From positions 1-56,119 of the IMG/VR virus record IMGVR_UViG_3300036820_000642: DNA of 56,119 nt. One strand, written 5' to 3'. Source of the DNA: a virus. A program made the translations under genes and the position numbers. The stretch's first letter is position 1; every line of letters starts with the position of its first letter. Below, one piece after another: positions 3,029-56,119 of this stretch. The notes beneath the pieces were generated by a model. It was not told the DNA's origin, did no database searches, and was given only the letters and a program-made list of their open reading frames with translations.

Positions 3029-3161
3029 ATTCACAATTAACTATTGTCTGCGGCTTCGCCGCGAATGTCCCCCTTCACCTTCTTTGCCGATGGCTAAACC
3101 CTTAGACAACAGTGTTCGCTCAACGCGAACTAACTTGTTTTGCTGTCGATGATCATCACAC

Positions 3162-3192
3162 GTTACCGTTGTTAAGTATGGGGATCGGTAAC
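3162..3192. promoter_or_regulatory. Operator-like element GTTACCG-N17-CGGTAAC
   Basis: GTTACCG (3162-3168) and CGGTAAC (3186-3192) are perfect inverted half-sites across 17 bases, overlapping the start codon at 3178. A bound regulator would block transcription or initiation of this gene. See also 15081-15110 and 22028-22057. Confidence 0.5.
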
Positions 3193-3420
3193 ACGAGAGA
3201 TGGCATCATTCTCTCAACTCGGACAATCACTGTCGCGCTCGCAGACGACGGCGCCACATTGCTGATGTTCGCGCAGACGAATCCCCGCGAACAGGACTGG
3301 CGCAAGGCTATGCGCCTCCTGGAAAAACACCATGTGTCCGATATCGGGGAACCGTCATGGTTCGCCGATATTGACCTGTGGGAAATTCCCCTACCGTGTC
3401 GCGACACGCCCACGGATTGA
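3178..3420 (+). CDS. Hypothetical protein upstream of split nuclease
   Basis: About 80 residues from ATG 3178; an upstream in-frame GTG at 3112 would add 22 residues but has no ribosome site. The sequence looks like a compact alpha/beta protein (IILSTRTITVALADDGATLLMF, then DWRKAMRLLEKH). No family is recognised. The operator-like repeat overlaps its start, and a long hairpin follows one base after its stop. Confidence 0.5.
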   Translation: MGIGNTRDGIILSTRTITVALADDGATLLMFAQTNPREQDWRKAMRLLEKHHVSDIGEPSWFADIDLWEIPLPCRDTPTD

Positions 3421-3421
3421 G

Positions 3422-3456
3422 TTTGTAAAAGTATCCATGCAGGATACTCTTACAAA
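3422..3456. promoter_or_regulatory. 15-bp inverted repeat before nuclease gene
   Basis: Arms TTTGTAAAAGTATCC (3422-3436) and GGATACTCTTACAAA (3442-3456) pair with one mismatch around the 5-base loop ATGCA. The repeat ends one base before ATG 3458, and an alternative in-frame ATG (3437) sits exactly in the loop. It is much richer in AT than its surroundings. It could be an operator, or an RNA hairpin that hides the start. The 11-mer TACTCTTACAA within it recurs at 21193-21203. Confidence 0.6.
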
Positions 3457-3457
3457 T

Positions 3458-3646
3458 ATGGAAGAGAGCACGGAGGCGAGGTCGCACAGCCAGCTTCACA
3501 GCTGGCTGCAATGCGGCAAAGCCTACGAACTGGAACGCATCAGACGCGTTCCCCGCAAACCCGGCTTGTGGCTCCCGGCCGGTACCGCCTGCCATCTGTC
3601 AATTGAGTGGTGGCTTCGTCAGCGTCTCGCGAAAGGACTCCGGTAA
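3458..3646 (+). CDS. Cas4/RecB-like nuclease, N-terminal half (split gene)
   Basis: A 62-residue product (69 if ATG 3437 is used) matching only the N-terminus of PD-(D/E)XK exonucleases of the Cas4/RecB type: HSQLHSWLQCGKAYELERI, then VPRKPGLWLPAGTACH. It has the first cysteine of the C...CxxCx5C cluster (Cys19) and the conserved His (about residue 46), but no catalytic Asp or Lys. The rest of the enzyme is encoded separately at 5269-6066, after six intervening genes. The frame ends in TAA right where homologues continue. The halves probably associate; alternatively the gene is broken and inactive. Confidence 0.75.
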   Translation: MEESTEARSHSQLHSWLQCGKAYELERIRRVPRKPGLWLPAGTACHLSIEWWLRQRLAKGLR

Positions 3647-4045
3647 ATGACCGAATTTGTGGAGAACACCACAAGGCGTGTGCCGAACAAGGAACACCTG
3701 ATCCTGTGGTATCAGGCGCTGATGTCCGGCGACTATGTGCAGGGCGACGGCCGGCTCTGCGCGGTCGGGCACGACGGTGAGCCTGACAAATGGTGCTGCC
3801 TTGGCGTTGCTTGCGATGTCGCCGTCAAGAACGGCGTTGAAATGCTCCTCGATGCCGATGGGATACGCAAGTATTTCGACGGGATGATTGCCTATCTCCC
3901 CAAGAAGGTAGAGGAATGGCTCGGGGTTCCCGATCATGACCCTGATCTTGCCGGGGAACGCGCATCCAATTGGAACGACAGCTCTCGCCTGTCGTTCCCG
4001 GAGATCGCCGAACTGATCAAGAACGAATACGAGCTGGCCGTCTGA
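3647..4045 (+). CDS. CCLGV-family protein, copy 1
   Basis: 132 residues, starting directly after the stop of the nuclease N-half. The family pattern is: a helix with L-SGxYxQGxxxL, then WCCLGVACDVA, a variable middle, LPxxVxxWLGV, A-xWND and a C-terminal helix SFxEIAxLIxxEY. Proteins like this are common in phages and, to my knowledge, have no known function. The paired cysteines suggest metal or redox chemistry, or a structural role. It overlaps copy 2 by one base. Copies 1-3 all sit between the two nuclease halves. Confidence 0.75.
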   Translation: MTEFVENTTRRVPNKEHLILWYQALMSGDYVQGDGRLCAVGHDGEPDKWCCLGVACDVAVKNGVEMLLDADGIRKYFDGMIAYLPKKVEEWLGVPDHDPDLAGERASNWNDSSRLSFPEIAELIKNEYELAV

Positions 4046-4437
4046 TGGCAAACGTCGAGAACATGGGGCTGTGGGCCGGGGCCCTGCGGTCGGGTGACTA
4101 TGAGCAGGGCGCCAACGTTCTCCACAATGTGGACAATAATACGTGGTGTTGTCTCGGGGTGGCTTGCGATGTGGCCATAAAGAACGGTGTCCAGCTCGGC
4201 ACCAAGATTGAAGCCGAGAAGGTCCAATACAGCGATGAGGAGAAGCCGACGGGTCGCGTCACGAATTTCGGTGGGGCCGTAGCTTTCCTGCCGTATCAGG
4301 TTATTGACTGGCTGGATGTCGATTCGAATAACCCGAAGCTATGCGACTTGAGGGCGACGTGGCTCAACGACATCGGCAATAGGTCGTTCAATGAGATCGC
4401 TGATCTCATTGACACCGAGTGCGGGCTAGCCGCCTGA
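4045..4437 (+). CDS. CCLGV-family protein, copy 2
   Basis: 130 residues from ATG 4045, overlapping the TGA of copy 1 by one base. It carries ALRSGDYEQG, TWCCLGVACDVA, FLPYQVIDWLDV and a C-terminal SFNEIADLIDTE helix, so it aligns with copy 1 along its length. A start further upstream would run out of frame through copy 1. This is a tandem duplicate, diverged enough to suggest an old event. Confidence 0.75.
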   Translation: MANVENMGLWAGALRSGDYEQGANVLHNVDNNTWCCLGVACDVAIKNGVQLGTKIEAEKVQYSDEEKPTGRVTNFGGAVAFLPYQVIDWLDVDSNNPKLCDLRATWLNDIGNRSFNEIADLIDTECGLAA

Positions 4438-4644
4438 ATGGGTAAGACGGTCACCTATCGGACTGGACAGAAGCTAGCCAAGGTTTACAAGGCGCCGAGC
4501 CGTTACCAACGGTGGATGCTGTATGCGCTGAACATGCGGCTACGGAACATTTACGCGGGGACAGTGCCAGAGGCAGAGGTGCGCCGCCGGAGGGCGGCGA
4601 ACAAGGTGGCACGCAGACAACGGAGGGTAAACCGGGGTGGCTAA
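4438..4644 (+). CDS. Small basic protein
   Basis: 68 residues with many Arg and Lys, especially at the C-terminus (RRRRAANKVARRQRRVNRGG). ATG 4438 follows the stop of copy 2 with no gap, and the 3' end overlaps the GTG of copy 3 by 8 bases. Possibly a nucleic-acid-binding protein. No family is recognised. Confidence 0.6.
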   Translation: MGKTVTYRTGQKLAKVYKAPSRYQRWMLYALNMRLRNIYAGTVPEAEVRRRRAANKVARRQRRVNRGG

Positions 4645-5017
4645 CCAGGAGAACATGCAGTTTTGGCTGACCGCACTGCGGTCAGGGCAATTCCAGCAGG
4701 GACGCGGGGAACTGCACAACGCCGAGACTGACAGTTATTGCTGTCTTGGTGTCGCGTGTGAGGTCGCTTACCAGGCTGGTGTGATCCTTCACCGAGCGGT
4801 GTACGAGGGTTGCACGTCTTATGACGGGGACTCGACAGCGCTGCCGAAGGCGGTCAGGGAATGGCTTGGCATCACTAACGCGTCCGTGCTGCTGAGAGAA
4901 CACACGGCTATCTTCTGGAACGACGTTACGAAAGCCAGCTTCGCTGAGATCGCCGACATGCTGGAAAACGAATACCTGGGGGGCACTAATGAAGTCGTGG
5001 ACATGCCCGCACTGTGA
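4637..5017 (+). CDS. CCLGV-family protein, copy 3
   Basis: 126 residues from GTG 4637, with GGAGGG nine bases upstream. It shows ALRSGQFQQGRGEL, YCCLGVACEVA, LPKAVREWLGI, FWNDV and a SFAEIADMLENEY helix. This is the third tandem member inside the nuclease split. Its 3' end overlaps the small zinc-ribbon gene at 4989. Confidence 0.75.
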   Translation: MANQENMQFWLTALRSGQFQQGRGELHNAETDSYCCLGVACEVAYQAGVILHRAVYEGCTSYDGDSTALPKAVREWLGITNASVLLREHTAIFWNDVTKASFAEIADMLENEYLGGTNEVVDMPAL

Positions 5018-5105
5018 TTACGAGGGACAGCGGGTGTGGGGGGTGGCGCCTAGGCCGTCTAAGCGGCGGGTGCGGCTCTGCCCGTCATGTGGGGGGGCGG
5101 CGTGA
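4989..5105 (+). CDS. Tiny zinc-ribbon protein (38 aa)
   Basis: ATG 4989 to TGA 5105 encodes 38 residues with TCPHCDYEGQRV near the N-terminus and LCPSCGG near the C-terminus, a CxxC...CxxC zinc ribbon with a basic linker (RPSKRRVR). It overlaps copy 3 by 29 bases and the next gene by a GTGA junction. Likely metal-binding, possibly binding nucleic acid. It belongs to the island between the nuclease halves. Confidence 0.65.
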   Translation: MKSWTCPHCDYEGQRVWGVAPRPSKRRVRLCPSCGGAA

Positions 5106-5272
5106 AGCTTGGTCGTAGGTGCACGCTGCCGCGTGCGTCGAGTCCGGCCGGTGTGAAGGCGCGGATGGAACGCAGAATCAAAGGGTTCACACCGGAGATT
5201 CCCAAGGGTGGGCCGGGCACGCAGAAGCATCACAAGCCCGGCAGCAGGAACCCGAGGAAGGTGGGCCGGTGA
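5102..5272 (+). CDS. Small basic protein (56 aa)
   Basis: GTG 5102 to TGA 5272. It is rich in Lys, Arg, Gly and Pro (KARMERRIKGFTPEIPKG, then a C-terminal KHHKPGSRNPRKVGR). A run of seven G residues gives a ribosome site. Its stop overlaps GTG 5269 of the nuclease C-half, so translation of the two is probably coupled. It may be a binding partner or linker of the nuclease. No homologue is recognised. Confidence 0.6.
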   Translation: MKLGRRCTLPRASSPAGVKARMERRIKGFTPEIPKGGPGTQKHHKPGSRNPRKVGR

Positions 5273-6066
5273 GTCTGTTCTCTGCGGCTCAGCCGACGAT
5301 TGAAGACGTCTTCCTGTCGGAGCTGGACACCGCCATTCAGGCGGAAGAGGCAGAGACAGGGTTCGCCGCGTCGGAGTGGATGACCGCGGGGGCCAGGGGC
5401 TGCCAGGACCGTGACTGGTGGGAAGGTCACGGCCCCGAGCTGGTCCGCAACTTCACGTCCTGGTATGAGAGCAACCCGGACGCGTCCGTGTGGCATACAC
5501 CGGACGGGGAACCCGCGATCGAACTGCCGCTAGATGTGACGTTCGGCAGCGTGCGTGTCCGGATGATCGTGGACCTGGTTCTACAGATCGGTACTGCGCT
5601 TGTCGTCACGGACCACAAGTCGGGGGCTCGGAGCCCCGATGGTGTATCGCAGCTCAGCATCTACGCGTCCGGGATTGAACTGCAATACGGGATACGCCCC
5701 AAGTACGGAACATTCTTCATGCTGCGTGGTGTCGGGAAAGAGGAACCTAAAACCCATTTCCTGACACCGACCGTGCTCGACGGTTACGAGCATTCCGTTG
5801 ACTGGTGGACGAAACAGTTCGCCATGTTCGACGCCGCCGTGAAGGCGGGAACATTCATCGCCCATCCGGGTGAGCAGTGCAAGAGATGTGGCGTGGCGTA
5901 TGCCTGCCCGGCTGTCGGGGGCAGGCAGGCCATGACTTTCGATCCATTGTTGAGAGAGGGGGTTGAGGTATGGCAGAAGAGGGTTTCCGCGAGGGTATTA
6001 CAGTCACCTTCAAGGGGGGAACGGATTACGGGGCGCCGTGGATCACGATCCACGCCGCGGATGTGA
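5269..6066 (+). CDS. Cas4/RecB-like nuclease, catalytic C-terminal half (split gene)
   Basis: 265 residues from GTG 5269, with GAGGAAGG upstream. It contains the PD-(D/E)XK core: Glu85, Asp102 (MIVDLV), Asp115-x-Lys117 (VTDHKSG) and the Q128xxxY132 motif. Near the end it has CKRCGVAYACP (Cys204, 207, 213), the C-terminal part of the four-cysteine cluster whose first cysteine is in the other half. Related enzymes are 5'-3' or ssDNA exonucleases in recombination. The N-terminus resumes where the first half stops, with no clear loss. The last 30 or so residues run out over the next gene and look less conserved. Confidence 0.8.
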   Translation: MSLFSAAQPTIEDVFLSELDTAIQAEEAETGFAASEWMTAGARGCQDRDWWEGHGPELVRNFTSWYESNPDASVWHTPDGEPAIELPLDVTFGSVRVRMIVDLVLQIGTALVVTDHKSGARSPDGVSQLSIYASGIELQYGIRPKYGTFFMLRGVGKEEPKTHFLTPTVLDGYEHSVDWWTKQFAMFDAAVKAGTFIAHPGEQCKRCGVAYACPAVGGRQAMTFDPLLREGVEVWQKRVSARVLQSPSRGERITGRRGSRSTPRM

Positions 6067-6377
6067 ACAGTCTGGGCCTGGTCCTTGAAGAGATCAGAGA
6101 CAAGGAAGTGTTCCCGACTGTCACCATGGCGGCTGAGGAGTTCCATTACAAGCCGCCATCGACAAGTCAGGCTGTCCGTGACATTCAGAACGCGATGAAT
6201 GGCGGCCGAGGCTATGACGGCCAGAACTTGCCGGGCCAGTATCAGCCGGGCGGTAATGCGCCGAACTGTGCGCATGGCCCGATGCAGTATGTAGCGCAGG
6301 GGAAGTACGGGCCGTTCTGGGCTTGTCCGCAGCCGCGTGGGGCTTATGACAAATGCAAGGCAGTCAACGCACGGTAG
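5970..6377 (+). CDS. Zinc-ribbon protein, possible ssDNA-binding recombination partner
   Basis: 135 residues from ATG 5970 with a strong GAGGGGG site. The N-terminal half (ITVTFKGGTDYGAPWITIHAAD, then LGLVLEEIRD) is alpha/beta. The C-terminus has a zinc-ribbon-like CAHG...WACPQPRGAYDKC pattern after a glycine-rich linker, similar to topoisomerase-type zinc ribbons. It overlaps the nuclease by 97 bases. Placement next to the exonuclease suggests a role in recombination or single-strand handling, which is inference. Confidence 0.6.
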   Translation: MAEEGFREGITVTFKGGTDYGAPWITIHAADVNSLGLVLEEIRDKEVFPTVTMAAEEFHYKPPSTSQAVRDIQNAMNGGRGYDGQNLPGQYQPGGNAPNCAHGPMQYVAQGKYGPFWACPQPRGAYDKCKAVNAR

Positions 6378-7452: not shown

Positions 7453-7711
7453 TGTGCAGGTTCTTATCAAGCAGTCATGCCCGCAGGGGCTCACTGGTGA
7501 TGACCTTGCGGAACTGTTTGGTGATGGTGAACGGCTCCGGGAGTTCAATCATTGGATGCGTGGGCAGACAATGAGTGTCTGTGATGGACGGGAATACAAC
7601 TATGCGGAGAAACGGTATCAGCCGACTAAATGCGCGGGGCACCCGCATGGCGTAGTGGCGTACCCGTGGGATGTCGAACGTTTCTTGCTGGGACTGCCAG
7701 TAATTGACTAA
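7442..7711 (+). CDS. Hypothetical protein
   Basis: 89 residues from ATG 7442, overlapping the ATPase by 11 bases. The C-terminal half has scattered Cys and His residues (MSVCDGREYNY, TKCAGHPHGVVAYPW) that could bind a metal. Function unknown. Confidence 0.55.
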   Translation: MTTNVQVLIKQSCPQGLTGDDLAELFGDGERLREFNHWMRGQTMSVCDGREYNYAEKRYQPTKCAGHPHGVVAYPWDVERFLLGLPVID

Positions 7712-7721
7712 GGGGGAAGTG

Positions 7722-8075
7722 ATGGATGCTGCGATCAAAGAACAGTGGATCAAAGACCTACGCTCCGGTGAGTTCGAGCAGGGCCGCGGGAAACTGGAAG
7801 AGGACCACCAGTTTTGTTGCCTCGGGGTGCTGTGTTTCCGCGCTGCGGAGGCAGGTATTACTAGCCGGGTCGTGGAGGCTAACGGTGTCGTGACGTATGG
7901 CGGCATGGATGGTGTGCCTCCTAGTGAAGTCCTGAAGTGGGCCGGGTTGAATATTTATGAGGCGCAGGGCCGTTATGCGCCGGCTGATGGTGAAGAACGC
8001 TGGCTCACTATGGACAATGACAGAGATCGTCATGGCTTCGATCAGATCGCGGACACGATCGAGAAGCATTTCTAG
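7722..8075 (+). CDS. CCLGV-family protein, copy 4
   Basis: 117 residues from ATG 7722 with an AGGGGGAAGTG ribosome site. It matches the family (DLRSGEFEQGRGKL, FCCLGVLCFRAAEAG, LKWAGL, FDQIADTIEKHF) but lies outside the nuclease island, so copies are scattered as well as tandem. Possibly cytosolic; no signal or membrane segment is seen. Confidence 0.75.
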   Translation: MDAAIKEQWIKDLRSGEFEQGRGKLEEDHQFCCLGVLCFRAAEAGITSRVVEANGVVTYGGMDGVPPSEVLKWAGLNIYEAQGRYAPADGEERWLTMDNDRDRHGFDQIADTIEKHF

Positions 8076-9699: not shown

Positions 9700-9902
9700 C
9701 TCCAGAGGAAAAGATCGGCAAGAAGCTCGGCGCATTCATAGCCGAGGCGGGTGTTGGTGCGCTCGGCGCCTGGTGGCTGACGCTCGCTTGGCCTTCCCTG
9801 TTCGACCGTCACCCCGGCTTCTGGATCATGTGGGCTGTCGTCTCGATCGCCGAATGGATTATTGCTGTGTGCATGAAGGGAGAACTGTTGACCAATGGTT
9901 GA
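9696..9902 (+). CDS. Two-pass membrane protein
   Basis: 68 residues from ATG 9696. Two hydrophobic helices (GVGALGAWWLTLAWPSLF and GFWIMWAVVSIAEWIIAVCM) predict a hairpin in the membrane. Encoded between replication genes, its role is unclear. Confidence 0.6.
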   Translation: MTPEEKIGKKLGAFIAEAGVGALGAWWLTLAWPSLFDRHPGFWIMWAVVSIAEWIIAVCMKGELLTNG

Positions 9903-10578
9903 GTTTGAACCGATACTCGTTCACCGGTCTTTCGGGAAGATCTCTCGACTGTTCCGGGACGGCGTGTACACGGAGAAGATCGACGGTACGCAACTGGGTG
10001 TCGGTGTGATGCTCGTCAAGGATGGGATGCGCGGGCATCCTGACCTTGACTCGCCTGCTGTGAAGCTCGGGAAATACTCGGATGGCACCGAGTACGCGAT
10101 TTATGCGCAGTCCCGTAACCGGCTGATTTCCCCGTTTGACGACAACTACAGTTCTGCGGCGTGGGTGCATGACAACGCGGAGACGCTAGCGGCCGACCTT
10201 GGTCCCGGCCTCCATTTCGGTGAATGGTGGGGGCATGGTATCCAGAGGAACTACGGGCAGCGGCAGAAATTTTTTTCACTTTTCAACGTCCAAAAGTGGG
10301 AGCCGGTAGCGGAGTCTTTCAAGACTCCGAATCTCCGGACTGTGCCTGTGCTGTCCAGGTTCACGTTCAGCACCGCGGAGGCAAGCCGCGTGCTCACCGA
10401 TCTGGCGATGAATGGTTCCCATGCTGCTCCGGGTTACATGAACCCGGAGGGGATCGTTGTGTTTCATCCGGCGTCACAGTCTCTGTTTAAGGCGACGATT
10501 GACAACGACTCGCGACCTAAGTCGTTGTCGCAGCGGCGTCGCCTGGCTGTGGTGGATGGCGAGGATCTTGCCGCGTGA
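9895..10578 (+). CDS. RNA/DNA ligase-type nucleotidyltransferase
   Basis: 227 residues from ATG 9895. Ligase motif I is at residues 27-32 (EKIDGT), with Lys28 the AMP-accepting lysine. Others are HFGEWWGHG (IIIa-like), FSLFNV (III), PEGIVVF (IV) and LFKATID (V). Its size and motif spacing fit a minimal RNA ligase (Rnl2-like fold) without extra domains. It could repair cleaved tRNA or nicked nucleic acid. Whether the substrate is RNA or DNA cannot be told from sequence alone. Confidence 0.75.
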   Translation: MVEFEPILVHRSFGKISRLFRDGVYTEKIDGTQLGVGVMLVKDGMRGHPDLDSPAVKLGKYSDGTEYAIYAQSRNRLISPFDDNYSSAAWVHDNAETLAADLGPGLHFGEWWGHGIQRNYGQRQKFFSLFNVQKWEPVAESFKTPNLRTVPVLSRFTFSTAEASRVLTDLAMNGSHAAPGYMNPEGIVVFHPASQSLFKATIDNDSRPKSLSQRRRLAVVDGEDLAA

Positions 10579-53836: not shown

Positions 53837-54694
53837 ATGTCAAGACTAGTCCCCACCGTCCGCAGGAAGCGGCTCGCATACGAACTACGGCGGCTACGGC
53901 ATGAGTCAACCCTGACGATTGACGATGTAGCCGCGCAGAGTGACCTCGATCCCAGCATGATCAGCAGGATTGAGAACGTGCGGCGGGCCATCAGCCCCAT
54001 CGAACTGCGGGCGCTGCTAGAGGTGTACGGAGTAACCGGCACGGACCGTGAAAGCCTGCTGACGCTCTGCCGCAGAGCCAACCAGCAAGGATGGTGGCAA
54101 GACGAAGCCCTGCCCGATTGGGTGGCCACCTTCGTGGCACTCGAATCTGACGCGGCCACCGTCCGCGCCTACGCATCCGAACTAGTACCAGGGCTGTTGC
54201 AGACAGAGCGCTACTACCGCTGGTACATGGGCATAGCGCCCGGCACCGCTGGCGGCGAGGCCGAGATTAACCGCCGCGTCAACGTCCGGCTCACCCGCCA
54301 AGCAAGACTCCGGGACGAGCACCCACTTACCTACTGGGCAATCCTCAATGAAGCCGTTATCACGCGGCTTACGGGTGCTCCGGTGAACGTTGCCCGTGAA
54401 CAGCTAGCCCATCTGCTAGAGGTGGGCCACCTTCTGAACGTCTCGATCCTCGTTCTCCCGTTCACCGCCGGGCTTCACCCTGCGATGGAAGGCGACTTCA
54501 CCCTCATGACCTTTGAAGACCGTCAAGACCCCGATGTTGTCTATCTGGAGTACCAGGTGGGTAGTCTTGTCCTTGAAGATCAGCTACGGGTCCGCCGTTA
54601 CGCTTCGATCTGGGATCACTTGATCGCACAGAGTCGCGATGAAGGACGGTCCCTCGCTGTCATCGAGAGCGTGTTGGACGGGCTCACAACCTAA
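53837..54694 (+). CDS. XRE/DUF5753 transcriptional regulator
   Basis: 285 residues from ATG 53837 (AAGGAGTTGGG). Residues 10-65 are an XRE helix-turn-helix (LAYELRRLRHESTLTIDDVA, SDLDPSMISRIENVRRAISP). Residues 100-280 are DUF5753-like (SELVPGLLQTERYYRWYMGI, VLPFTAGLHPAMEGDFTLM). Known family members in Streptomyces (for example WhiJ-type) act with small DUF397 proteins; one follows here. It may be the phage repressor or a host-development modulator. It is near int, as many immunity regions are. Confidence 0.8.
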   Translation: MSRLVPTVRRKRLAYELRRLRHESTLTIDDVAAQSDLDPSMISRIENVRRAISPIELRALLEVYGVTGTDRESLLTLCRRANQQGWWQDEALPDWVATFVALESDAATVRAYASELVPGLLQTERYYRWYMGIAPGTAGGEAEINRRVNVRLTRQARLRDEHPLTYWAILNEAVITRLTGAPVNVAREQLAHLLEVGHLLNVSILVLPFTAGLHPAMEGDFTLMTFEDRQDPDVVYLEYQVGSLVLEDQLRVRRYASIWDHLIAQSRDEGRSLAVIESVLDGLTT

Positions 54695-54708
54695 AGGGAG
54701 AGTGCGGG

Positions 54709-54933
54709 ATGACCGCAGACGATCTCTTGTCTAGTGCCGTCTGGCGTAAGAGCACGTACAGCGGGGTTGAGGGCAACTGCGTAGAGGTCGGCCGCCTCAC
54801 GGACGGCAGGGTAGCCGTCCGTGACACCAAGGACCGGAGCAAGGCCCCTCACATCTACACAGCCGCCGAATGGGATGCCTTCCTGCTCGGCGCCAAGGCT
54901 GGGGAGTTCGACTTACAGCCACCCAACAGTTAA
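54709..54933 (+). CDS. DUF397 protein, partner of regulator
   Basis: 74 residues from ATG 54709, 14 bases after the regulator stop. SAVWRKSTYSGVEGNCVEVG, GRVAVRDTKDRSKAPHIYT and EWDAFLLGAKAGEFD match DUF397, common in Streptomyces next to XRE/DUF5753 genes. Its role is probably to antagonise or assist the regulator. The operon ends at a terminator. Confidence 0.8.
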   Translation: MTADDLLSSAVWRKSTYSGVEGNCVEVGRLTDGRVAVRDTKDRSKAPHIYTAAEWDAFLLGAKAGEFDLQPPNS

Positions 54934-54965
54934 GGCCCCCGCCATATGGCGGGGGCCTTTTTAAC
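54932..54965. terminator. Bidirectional terminator
   Basis: A perfect 12-bp stem, AAGGCCCCCGCC (54932-54943) and GGCGGGGGCCTT (54948-54959), loop ATAT, T-tail on both strands. Placed between convergent DUF397 and integrase genes. Confidence 0.85.
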
Positions 54966-54985
54966 TGGCTGGGAGCCGGTACCGG

Positions 54986-56119
54986 TCAGCCTACCGCAGA
55001 CAAGACATGCTTGCCATTCGACCGTGATCCGAATGGCAGCACTTGCGCGCCGGAAGGCGGCGCAGCATCCGGCACCGCGAAACCATACATGGTTTCCTCC
55101 ACCAGATACTCATTCAGGAAGTCCCGTTCCTCATCCACCCCGATATACGTGAGTGTCTGCCGGATATCCTTGTGGTTCAGTTTCGCCTTCACCATCATCA
55201 GGGCCTGGTCGTTGCCCTTGGTCCCGGCGAGGTGCTTGAGCATCGCCCTCGCCCCGGAACGGCGCAGCATATGCATGCCCTCACGCATGTGCGTGACACT
55301 GTCCCCGTTGCCGCCAGGGGTTTCTATGCCCATCTCGTCAAGGACGTACTTAACCACATACTCCATGCGCTTATACGGCATGTCGGGGTGGATTTTCTTG
55401 TATGCGTTAGGGCTGGTACCGCCGTGGGCGGTAAGCCGCGGAATGAGGTACCACTCCGGGTGAGCTTTGATCATTTCTTCCGGTGTCGCGAAACCCTGAT
55501 CAGTCGCATACCAGGACAGCCAGTCCATCAATTCCGTGAACCAGTACGGATCGAAACGGTCTAGTGTCCACCGCCGCGTTTTCACCCGGTACAGGAGTAC
55601 CGTGCGCGCCTCAAGGTCCAGTTTCTCTAGCCGGATGAACGAGACCTCGGATTCACGGGCCAGCGTTGATAGCGTCATGGCGACGACTGCGCGGCGCTGC
55701 TGATGACTCTTCCCCGCGACCTCAAGCGCCTCCGGAATGCGATCCTCGGGCATCCGGTACCTGGGGGCGGGCTCGTATTTGACGCGCTTACGGCCGGCTA
55801 GGGCATCGTCTGCGTCGTCGCGGTCAACGAAGCGGCGGCGCACACACCATTTCAACCAGGCCCGGACGGCGACAAGGAGCTGATTGCGGGATGCGTGCTG
55901 ATCAGTGCCGTACGAGTTGAACACGTCGGCTATGTGCCCGGTGTGGATGTCGCACACCATCAGGCCCTTACGGGAGACGCTGCACACCCTGTCCAGGCGG
56001 CGGATGTACCCGATGTAGGCACGGACTGTGCTCGCGGACCCTAGCTCCGATTCGAGCTGGGCTTCCCACTCGGGGATGCTGTCAGCTACGCTGATTTTCG
56101 TTATTGTTCGGGAGGACAT
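54986..56119 (-). CDS. int: Tyrosine integrase
   Basis: 377 residues; the minus-strand ATG is the last three bases of the window and recurs at 30-32, so the gene is whole. Upstream across the join the frame is closed by a stop at 93-95 without another start codon. Catalytic residues: Arg155 (ARESE), His283-x-x-Arg286 (HMLRR), His316 (LNHKD) and Tyr325 (TYIGV), with Lys178 or Lys180 as candidate lysine. The N-terminal 100 residues form the core-binding SAM-like domain (TVRAYIGYIRRLDRVC). It integrates and excises the phage, so the phage is temperate. Confidence 0.9.
   Translation of the reverse strand: MSSRTITKISVADSIPEWEAQLESELGSASTVRAYIGYIRRLDRVCSVSRKGLMVCDIHTGHIADVFNSYGTDQHASRNQLLVAVRAWLKWCVRRRFVDRDDADDALAGRKRVKYEPAPRYRMPEDRIPEALEVAGKSHQQRRAVVAMTLSTLARESEVSFIRLEKLDLEARTVLLYRVKTRRWTLDRFDPYWFTELMDWLSWYATDQGFATPEEMIKAHPEWYLIPRLTAHGGTSPNAYKKIHPDMPYKRMEYVVKYVLDEMGIETPGGNGDSVTHMREGMHMLRRSGARAMLKHLAGTKGNDQALMMVKAKLNHKDIRQTLTYIGVDEERDFLNEYLVEETMYGFAVPDAAPPSGAQVLPFGSRSNGKHVLSAVG

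Follow-up and report, generated by a model that had tools for sequence, protein, structure and literature searches.

The virus record IMGVR_UViG_3300036820_000642 of IMG/VR (56,119 bases, analysed whole and referred to here as the window) encodes a Cas4-like nuclease in two separate genes, an N-terminal half (N-half) and a C-terminal half (C-half):

3458..3646, + strand: N-half of the Cas4-like nuclease, 62 amino acids; PHROG 69, E 1.6e-12; nonsynonymous divergence (pN) below synonymous divergence (pS)
5269..6066, + strand: C-half of the nuclease, 265 amino acids, GTG start; PHROG 1870, E 1.4e-31; PHROG 69, E 4.8e-18

We consider it quite likely that this arrangement derives from an old gene fission, that the halves, produced from one coupled operon, assemble into a two-chain Cas4-like nuclease, and that the junction between them has served as a landing site for small genes.

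The N-half runs from an ATG at 3458 to a TAA at 3644-3646, and its product matches positions 83-140 of the PHROG 69 exonuclease profile. The C-half product matches positions 155-327 of the same profile, as well as Pfam PDDEXK_1 (E 1.1e-7). Because the halves match successive stretches of one profile, they are consecutive pieces of one enzyme. Each is present in a single copy in the window. The N-half carries a cluster cysteine (Cys19), the motif I histidine (His46) and Glu50, and ends after the third helix of the nuclease fold. The C-half carries E85, the motif II aspartate (D102), motif III (D115-x-K117), Q128xxxY132 and three cysteines (C204-x2-C207-x5-C213). All of the motifs of Cas4-like proteins of the pfam12705 group are present (motif I His, motif II Asp, motif III D/E-x-K, QxxxY, and four cysteines, one N-terminal and three C-terminal), but they are spread over two polypeptides rather than one: 1622 bases lie between the N-half stop and the C-half start. 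A Shine-Dalgarno-like AGGAAGG is found upstream of GTG 5269. The original prediction, made from the letters of the window alone, had described a nuclease encoded in two genes, with an N-terminal part ending at TAA 3646, a catalytic part starting anew at GTG 5269 with a ribosome site, and a four-cysteine cluster divided between them. These claims hold, as do the residues that it named (Cys19, D102, D115-x-K117, Q128xxxY132 and the three C-terminal cysteines); His46 and Glu50 had gone unmentioned. The C-half ends in ~40 residues (about 5944-6066) that are specific to the window and missing in relatives, whose C-halves stop earlier; this 3' end overlaps the downstream gp49-like gene by 97 bases (5970-6066). 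The N-half is readily overlooked by annotators as a small hypothetical gene.

The same break is found in six other contigs, four of them close to the window (L009, L081, L089 and L090) and two more distant (L097 and L018). L009 (IMGVR_UViG_3300027857_000033) was found by an alignment-based scan of viral contigs; it has a C-half 51% identical to that of the window and its own separate N-half open reading frame (ORF). L018 was already among the matches of the first such scan, and L081, L089, L090 and L097 were found by alignment scans with the window and L009 together with patterns designed from the halves. All split members are metagenome-derived, and the search patterns are biased towards the window's own clade. 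Every split record has exactly one N-half and one C-half. The window N-half is 53-57% identical to those of the four close contigs (blastp) and the window C-half 47-52%; among split members, N-halves are 45-71% identical and C-halves 44-64%. A search of relatives for the same break point, which the original prediction had proposed, returns four contigs with 44-71% identity between halves, plus the two more distant ones. Other searches gave no further kin: a DNA-level search of a phage collection with the window region had no match, viral contigs scanned with the C-half or the helicase as the only query protein yielded no relative, two scans beyond the productive patterns added no split member, and two scans of bacterial and archaeal genomes found no relative. 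Two pattern matches in the bacterial scans (a Bacteroidaceae contig and a Planctomycetes contig) look like chance, and Cutibacterium phage YGXY, considered as a split member, seems merely oddly annotated.

What lies between the halves differs from one lineage to another. The distance from N-half stop to C-half start is 1622 bases in the window, 530 in L009, 506 in L089, 986 in L090, 123 in L081 and 203 in L097; in L018 it is minus 4 bases, with GTGA serving as both stop and start. The number of intervening genes ranges from six (window) to none (L018). The L009 gap holds a PHROG 889 gene and a gene for a 43-residue protein, both with homologues in the L089 gap. About four ORFs are present in the L090 gap, one zinc-ribbon-like ORF in that of L081, and one unrelated cysteine-rich ORF in that of L097. 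The gaps of the window, L090 and L081 all encode a 38-residue zinc-ribbon-like protein, and those of the window and L090 also share a small basic protein. In 6/7 members (all except L097) the next start codon overlaps the N-half stop (GTGA or ATGA) or directly follows it, and most split members have purine-rich Shine-Dalgarno-like bases within the last codons of the N-half.

In a maximum-likelihood tree of 32 sequences, for which the two halves of each split member were concatenated solely for alignment, one supported clade (96/97) unites the window, L009, L089, L090 and L081; approximately one change per site separates the window from its nearest relative in the tree. An approximately unbiased (AU) test gave p 0.047 for all seven split members as one clade and p 0.017 for the main clade plus L018; placement of L097 with the main clade was not rejected (p 0.37). 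The split in L018 is probably a separate event, or else an older split was followed by re-fusion; L018 stays ambiguous because one base could join its halves. Both halves are under constraint: pN (0.23-0.41) is below pS (0.55-0.85) in every pair and for both halves, with synonymous sites so near saturation that dN/dS is only a rough bound. The cluster cysteine and the motif I histidine, which aligns with His46 of the window, are kept in 7/7 N-halves. E85, D102, D115, K117, Q128 and the three cysteines are kept in the C-halves of all members. N-halves evolve about as fast as C-halves.

The location of the break was examined in a model of an intact relative, L093 (mean predicted local distance difference test [pLDDT] 93.5). 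In this model a helix at residues 36-53, carrying His45, is followed by a loop (54-59) and a second helix (60-81). The split N-halves finish just past the equivalent of the first helix and the C-halves start just ahead of the second, placing the break in a short loop whose length varies. In many intact relatives this loop contains Met-Ser or Met-Thr; the C-half begins with Met-Ser-Pro in L009 and L089 and with Met-Thr in L097. With the break in such a loop, nothing needed was lost, in agreement with the earlier claim that no residues are missing at the break. Fission could plausibly have come about through a start at or near this internal methionine. The solved structures nearest to the L093 model are the Cas4-family protein ACE1 (9iab, 9iac) and the AdnA nuclease domain (14-20% identity); a sequence-profile search agrees and adds Cas4 itself. 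When the C-half is modelled alone, its catalytic core is confident and its cysteine end weaker, the ten-residue blocks from 191-240 having pLDDT values of 67-82 versus at least 90 for the corresponding stretch of the L093 model. This weak cysteine end is as expected for a model that lacks its partner.

We propose the following sequence of events. The ancestor would have been a single gene for a Cas4-like phage exonuclease of the PD-(D/E)XK type with a four-cysteine 'iron staple'. Fission would have occurred in the loop joining the third and fourth helices, the C-half acquiring a start codon at, or immediately beside, the Met-Ser/Thr position of that loop. Both halves would then have been kept in one translationally coupled operon, translated as separate polypeptides, and associated after translation into one nuclease. 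To this enzyme the N-half would contribute a single cluster cysteine together with the histidine of motif I, and the C-half three cysteines along with all other catalytic residues. A parallel is the Cas4 protein Pcal_0546, whose cluster is held by one N-terminal and three C-terminal cysteines and in which a conserved His has been proposed as a metal ligand (PMC4176176); in the window the corresponding residues are divided between two chains. Such a nuclease may act in replication or recombination. The coupled junction would later have gained and exchanged small phage genes. The tight stop-start junctions at the end of the N-half in six members make production of the halves look linked. Fission first and insertion later is the simplest order, since L018 lacks an insert and the other members carry differing ones; L018 may, however, be a separate event or carry a base error. 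The original prediction held that a six-gene island had split the gene. The six genes do lie in the gap, but the island is probably not the cause of the split, because other clade members have unrelated gap genes, one has a single gene, and L018 has none.

Several points weigh against a two-chain nuclease with a shared cluster. Besides the near-saturation of synonymous sites, L081 has Gly in place of the QxxxY tyrosine, and the window-specific tail may partly explain why the C-half model is less confident. In most members the halves are not adjacent, other genes lying between them, and equal production is thus not assured. Cysteine mutants of Pcal_0546 retain nuclease activity (PMC4176176), and therefore a shared cluster need not be essential. 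An extended form of the proposal is on the whole doubtful: in a lineage of actinophages the iron-sulphur cluster and active site would be completed across the interface between the two chains, fission would have happened more than once at the same loop, the zinc-ribbon-like protein would be a third subunit or assembly factor, the split would control a dangerous nuclease, and the junction would be a gene-acquiring slot.

A real rival to the two-chain nuclease is that the N-half has been repurposed, for example as a regulator or inhibitor, while the C-half acts by itself or together with a different subunit. In its favour, nearly all catalytic motifs are on the C-half, a zinc-ribbon-like gene lies in the gap of three clade members, and an unrelated cysteine-rich gene in that of L097. 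Against it, Cys19 and His46 are expected to matter only inside the nuclease fold and are kept in 7/7 N-halves, and the N-halves evolve at about the rate of the C-halves; we regard this rival as unlikely. Gene decay, in which an insertion broke the gene and both remnants are drifting, is very unlikely. Most actinophage relatives do have single genes, but the same break with open halves recurs in six other contigs, the motif residues are kept with one exception, the inserts differ among contigs, and pN is well below pS. Of the two signs that the original prediction named together as refuting it, intact relatives exist but decay is not seen.

Post-transcriptional, co-translational or post-translational rejoining of the halves (through an intron, intein, frameshift or bypass) is still less probable. 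A related Cas4 gene, that of Mycobacterium phage Zeeculate (L008, 1255-3081), has an apparent in-frame intein inserted at the catalytic DxK motif, and this is a precedent of a kind. Against rejoining, no Rfam intron was found in the window region or the six other loci and no intein domain in the window halves or island; in addition, the N-half stop touches or overlaps the following start in 6/7 members and the gap is filled by coding genes of different families. An assembly artefact has a negligible probability: the records are metagenome-derived and one wrong base could explain the direct GTGA overlap of L018, but five gapped contigs and the window, drawn from different metagenomes, share one break point, contradicting the artefactual join considered in the original prediction, and the argument holds without L018.

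The genes between the halves of the window are as follows:

3647..4045, + strand: island gene 1, PHROG 18067 family (E 3e-13), unknown function; start abuts the N-half stop
4045..4437, + strand: island gene 2, PHROG 18067 paralogue (E 5.9e-15); 1-base overlap
4438..4644, + strand: island gene 3, small basic protein (PHROG 1622, E 1.5e-13)
4637..5017, + strand: island gene 4, PHROG 18067 paralogue (E 8.4e-17)
4989..5105, + strand: island gene 5, zinc-ribbon-like protein of 38 amino acids; homologues in the L090 and L081 gaps
5087..5272, + strand: island gene 6, 61 amino acids, unknown, no family match; stop overlaps the C-half start (GTGA)

The junctions include overlaps of 1, 8, 29 and 19 bases; two abut, and the last gene overlaps the C-half by 4 bases. 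The earlier description of six genes with 1-29 base overlaps is correct as to the six ORFs and slightly off in the range, given the two abutting junctions. Island gene 1 is a paralogue of genes 2 and 4. The homologue of island gene 3 in the L090 island is 40% identical over 50 amino acids (E 2.6e-9), and those of island gene 5 in the L090 and L081 gaps are 48% and 55% identical (E 8e-11 and 1.6e-10). A similar-looking ORF is also present outside the island (7704-8075, with the same CCLGV motif by eye), and L009 has a PHROG 18067 member outside its gap; genes of this family apparently duplicate and spread in these phages. No match to an endonuclease family was found in the window island or in the two L009 gap genes. 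In L009, an HNH endonuclease VII-like gene (4704-5258) overlaps the N-half start, beside the split and not inside it.

The genes flanking the split are shared among its members:

3112..3420, + strand: upstream neighbour; matches the L090 upstream ORF directly (E 8e-8)
5970..6377, + strand: downstream neighbour, L5 gp49-like (PF25690/PHROG 364); synteny 3' of the C-half

The upstream ORFs of L009, L089 and L081 match that of L090 and one another, giving synteny before the N-half. Immediately 3' of the C-half or a short way beyond it, a gp49-like gene is present in the window, L009, L089, L090, L081, L097 and L018. The window gene has direct matches in L090, L018 and L081; those of L009, L089 and L097 are linked via L090, L009 and L089, and that of L009 also belongs to PHROG 364. 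A near-perfect 15-base dyad (TTTGTAAAAGTATCC / GGATACTCTTACAAA, 5-base spacer) lies directly 5' of the N-half ATG at 3422-3457 and is possibly an operator; it was spotted by eye and is not listed by a repeat finder with a 9-base seed. A sigma-70 promoter scan near the window N-half found none. By eye, L097, L089 and L081 have promoter-like boxes ending approximately 6-7 bases 5' of the N-half ATG (TTGACA...TATGCT in L097), which suggests leaderless transcripts starting with the N-half in these three contigs. Elsewhere in the window, the left arm has a gene for an RNA ligase family protein (9895-10578; Pfam PF09414, E 2.9e-11), and a helix-turn-helix/DUF5753 gene and a DUF397 gene lie side by side at 53840-56119, adjoining the integrase. 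Such pairs are typical of actinobacterial chromosomes, and this one is possibly host DNA at a prophage edge or an acquired pair. No cas genes were found among the window neighbours scanned, which covered a part of the window ORFs.

The closest known counterparts are the single-gene Cas4-like exonucleases of actinophages (pfam12705 group; mycobacteriophages and phages of Rhodococcus, Gordonia and Cutibacterium), which have the same motif order, four cysteines and a shared gene neighbourhood near a DnaB-like helicase. In isolated actinophages this enzyme, called Cas4 exonuclease and ~30% identical to the window C-half, is encoded by one gene; here it is two polypeptides. Overproduction of one single-gene homologue, Hammy gp60, slows the growth of M. 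smegmatis (PMC10700055). ACE1, an Argonaute-associated Cas4 family protein, and the AdnA nuclease domain are the nearest folds, yet both are single chains. A survey of the Cas4 family that includes the mycobacterial phage group does not contain the word 'split', and it discarded short or disrupted sequences (PMC5704561). Our literature search found no published split Cas4/RecB-type nuclease. Should the halves assemble, an iron-staple nuclease would have been naturally divided so that two chains share the cluster ligands and the active site. The split is conserved across phages that are only about half identical, while the gap genes turn over. Three questions become open to direct test: what maintains a fission that has neither intron nor endonuclease, whether two chains can build a cluster at their interface, and what makes new genes settle within a split gene. 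The break could also guide the reconstitution of Cas4/RecB-type nucleases from two parts, as a naturally occurring point of division.

Phage enzymes encoded in pieces include the NrdA of Aeromonas phage Aeh1, the DNA polymerase gp43A/gp43B and the T4 topoisomerase gene 60/39 (PMC2988022). The split Aeh1 NrdA is fully active, and 43A and 43B co-purify (PMC2988022). These are likewise single enzymes from two genes, and the nuclease shares with such cases both intact single-gene relatives and two parts retained under constraint. The nrdA gene (by mobE insertion in Aeh1) and gene 60 were split by a homing endonuclease, whereas the gap in the window is without an endonuclease; compared with all three systems, the break here divides cluster ligands and the inserted genes vary. 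Two-gene phage enzymes are thus already established, and ribonucleotide reductase genes are split in many phages (PMC3653736). The NrdJ of Thermus phage phiYS40 is encoded by consecutive ORFs with almost nothing separating the parts, as in L018; NrdJ is a different enzyme, and the passage on it describes no lineage with variable gap genes (PMC3653736).
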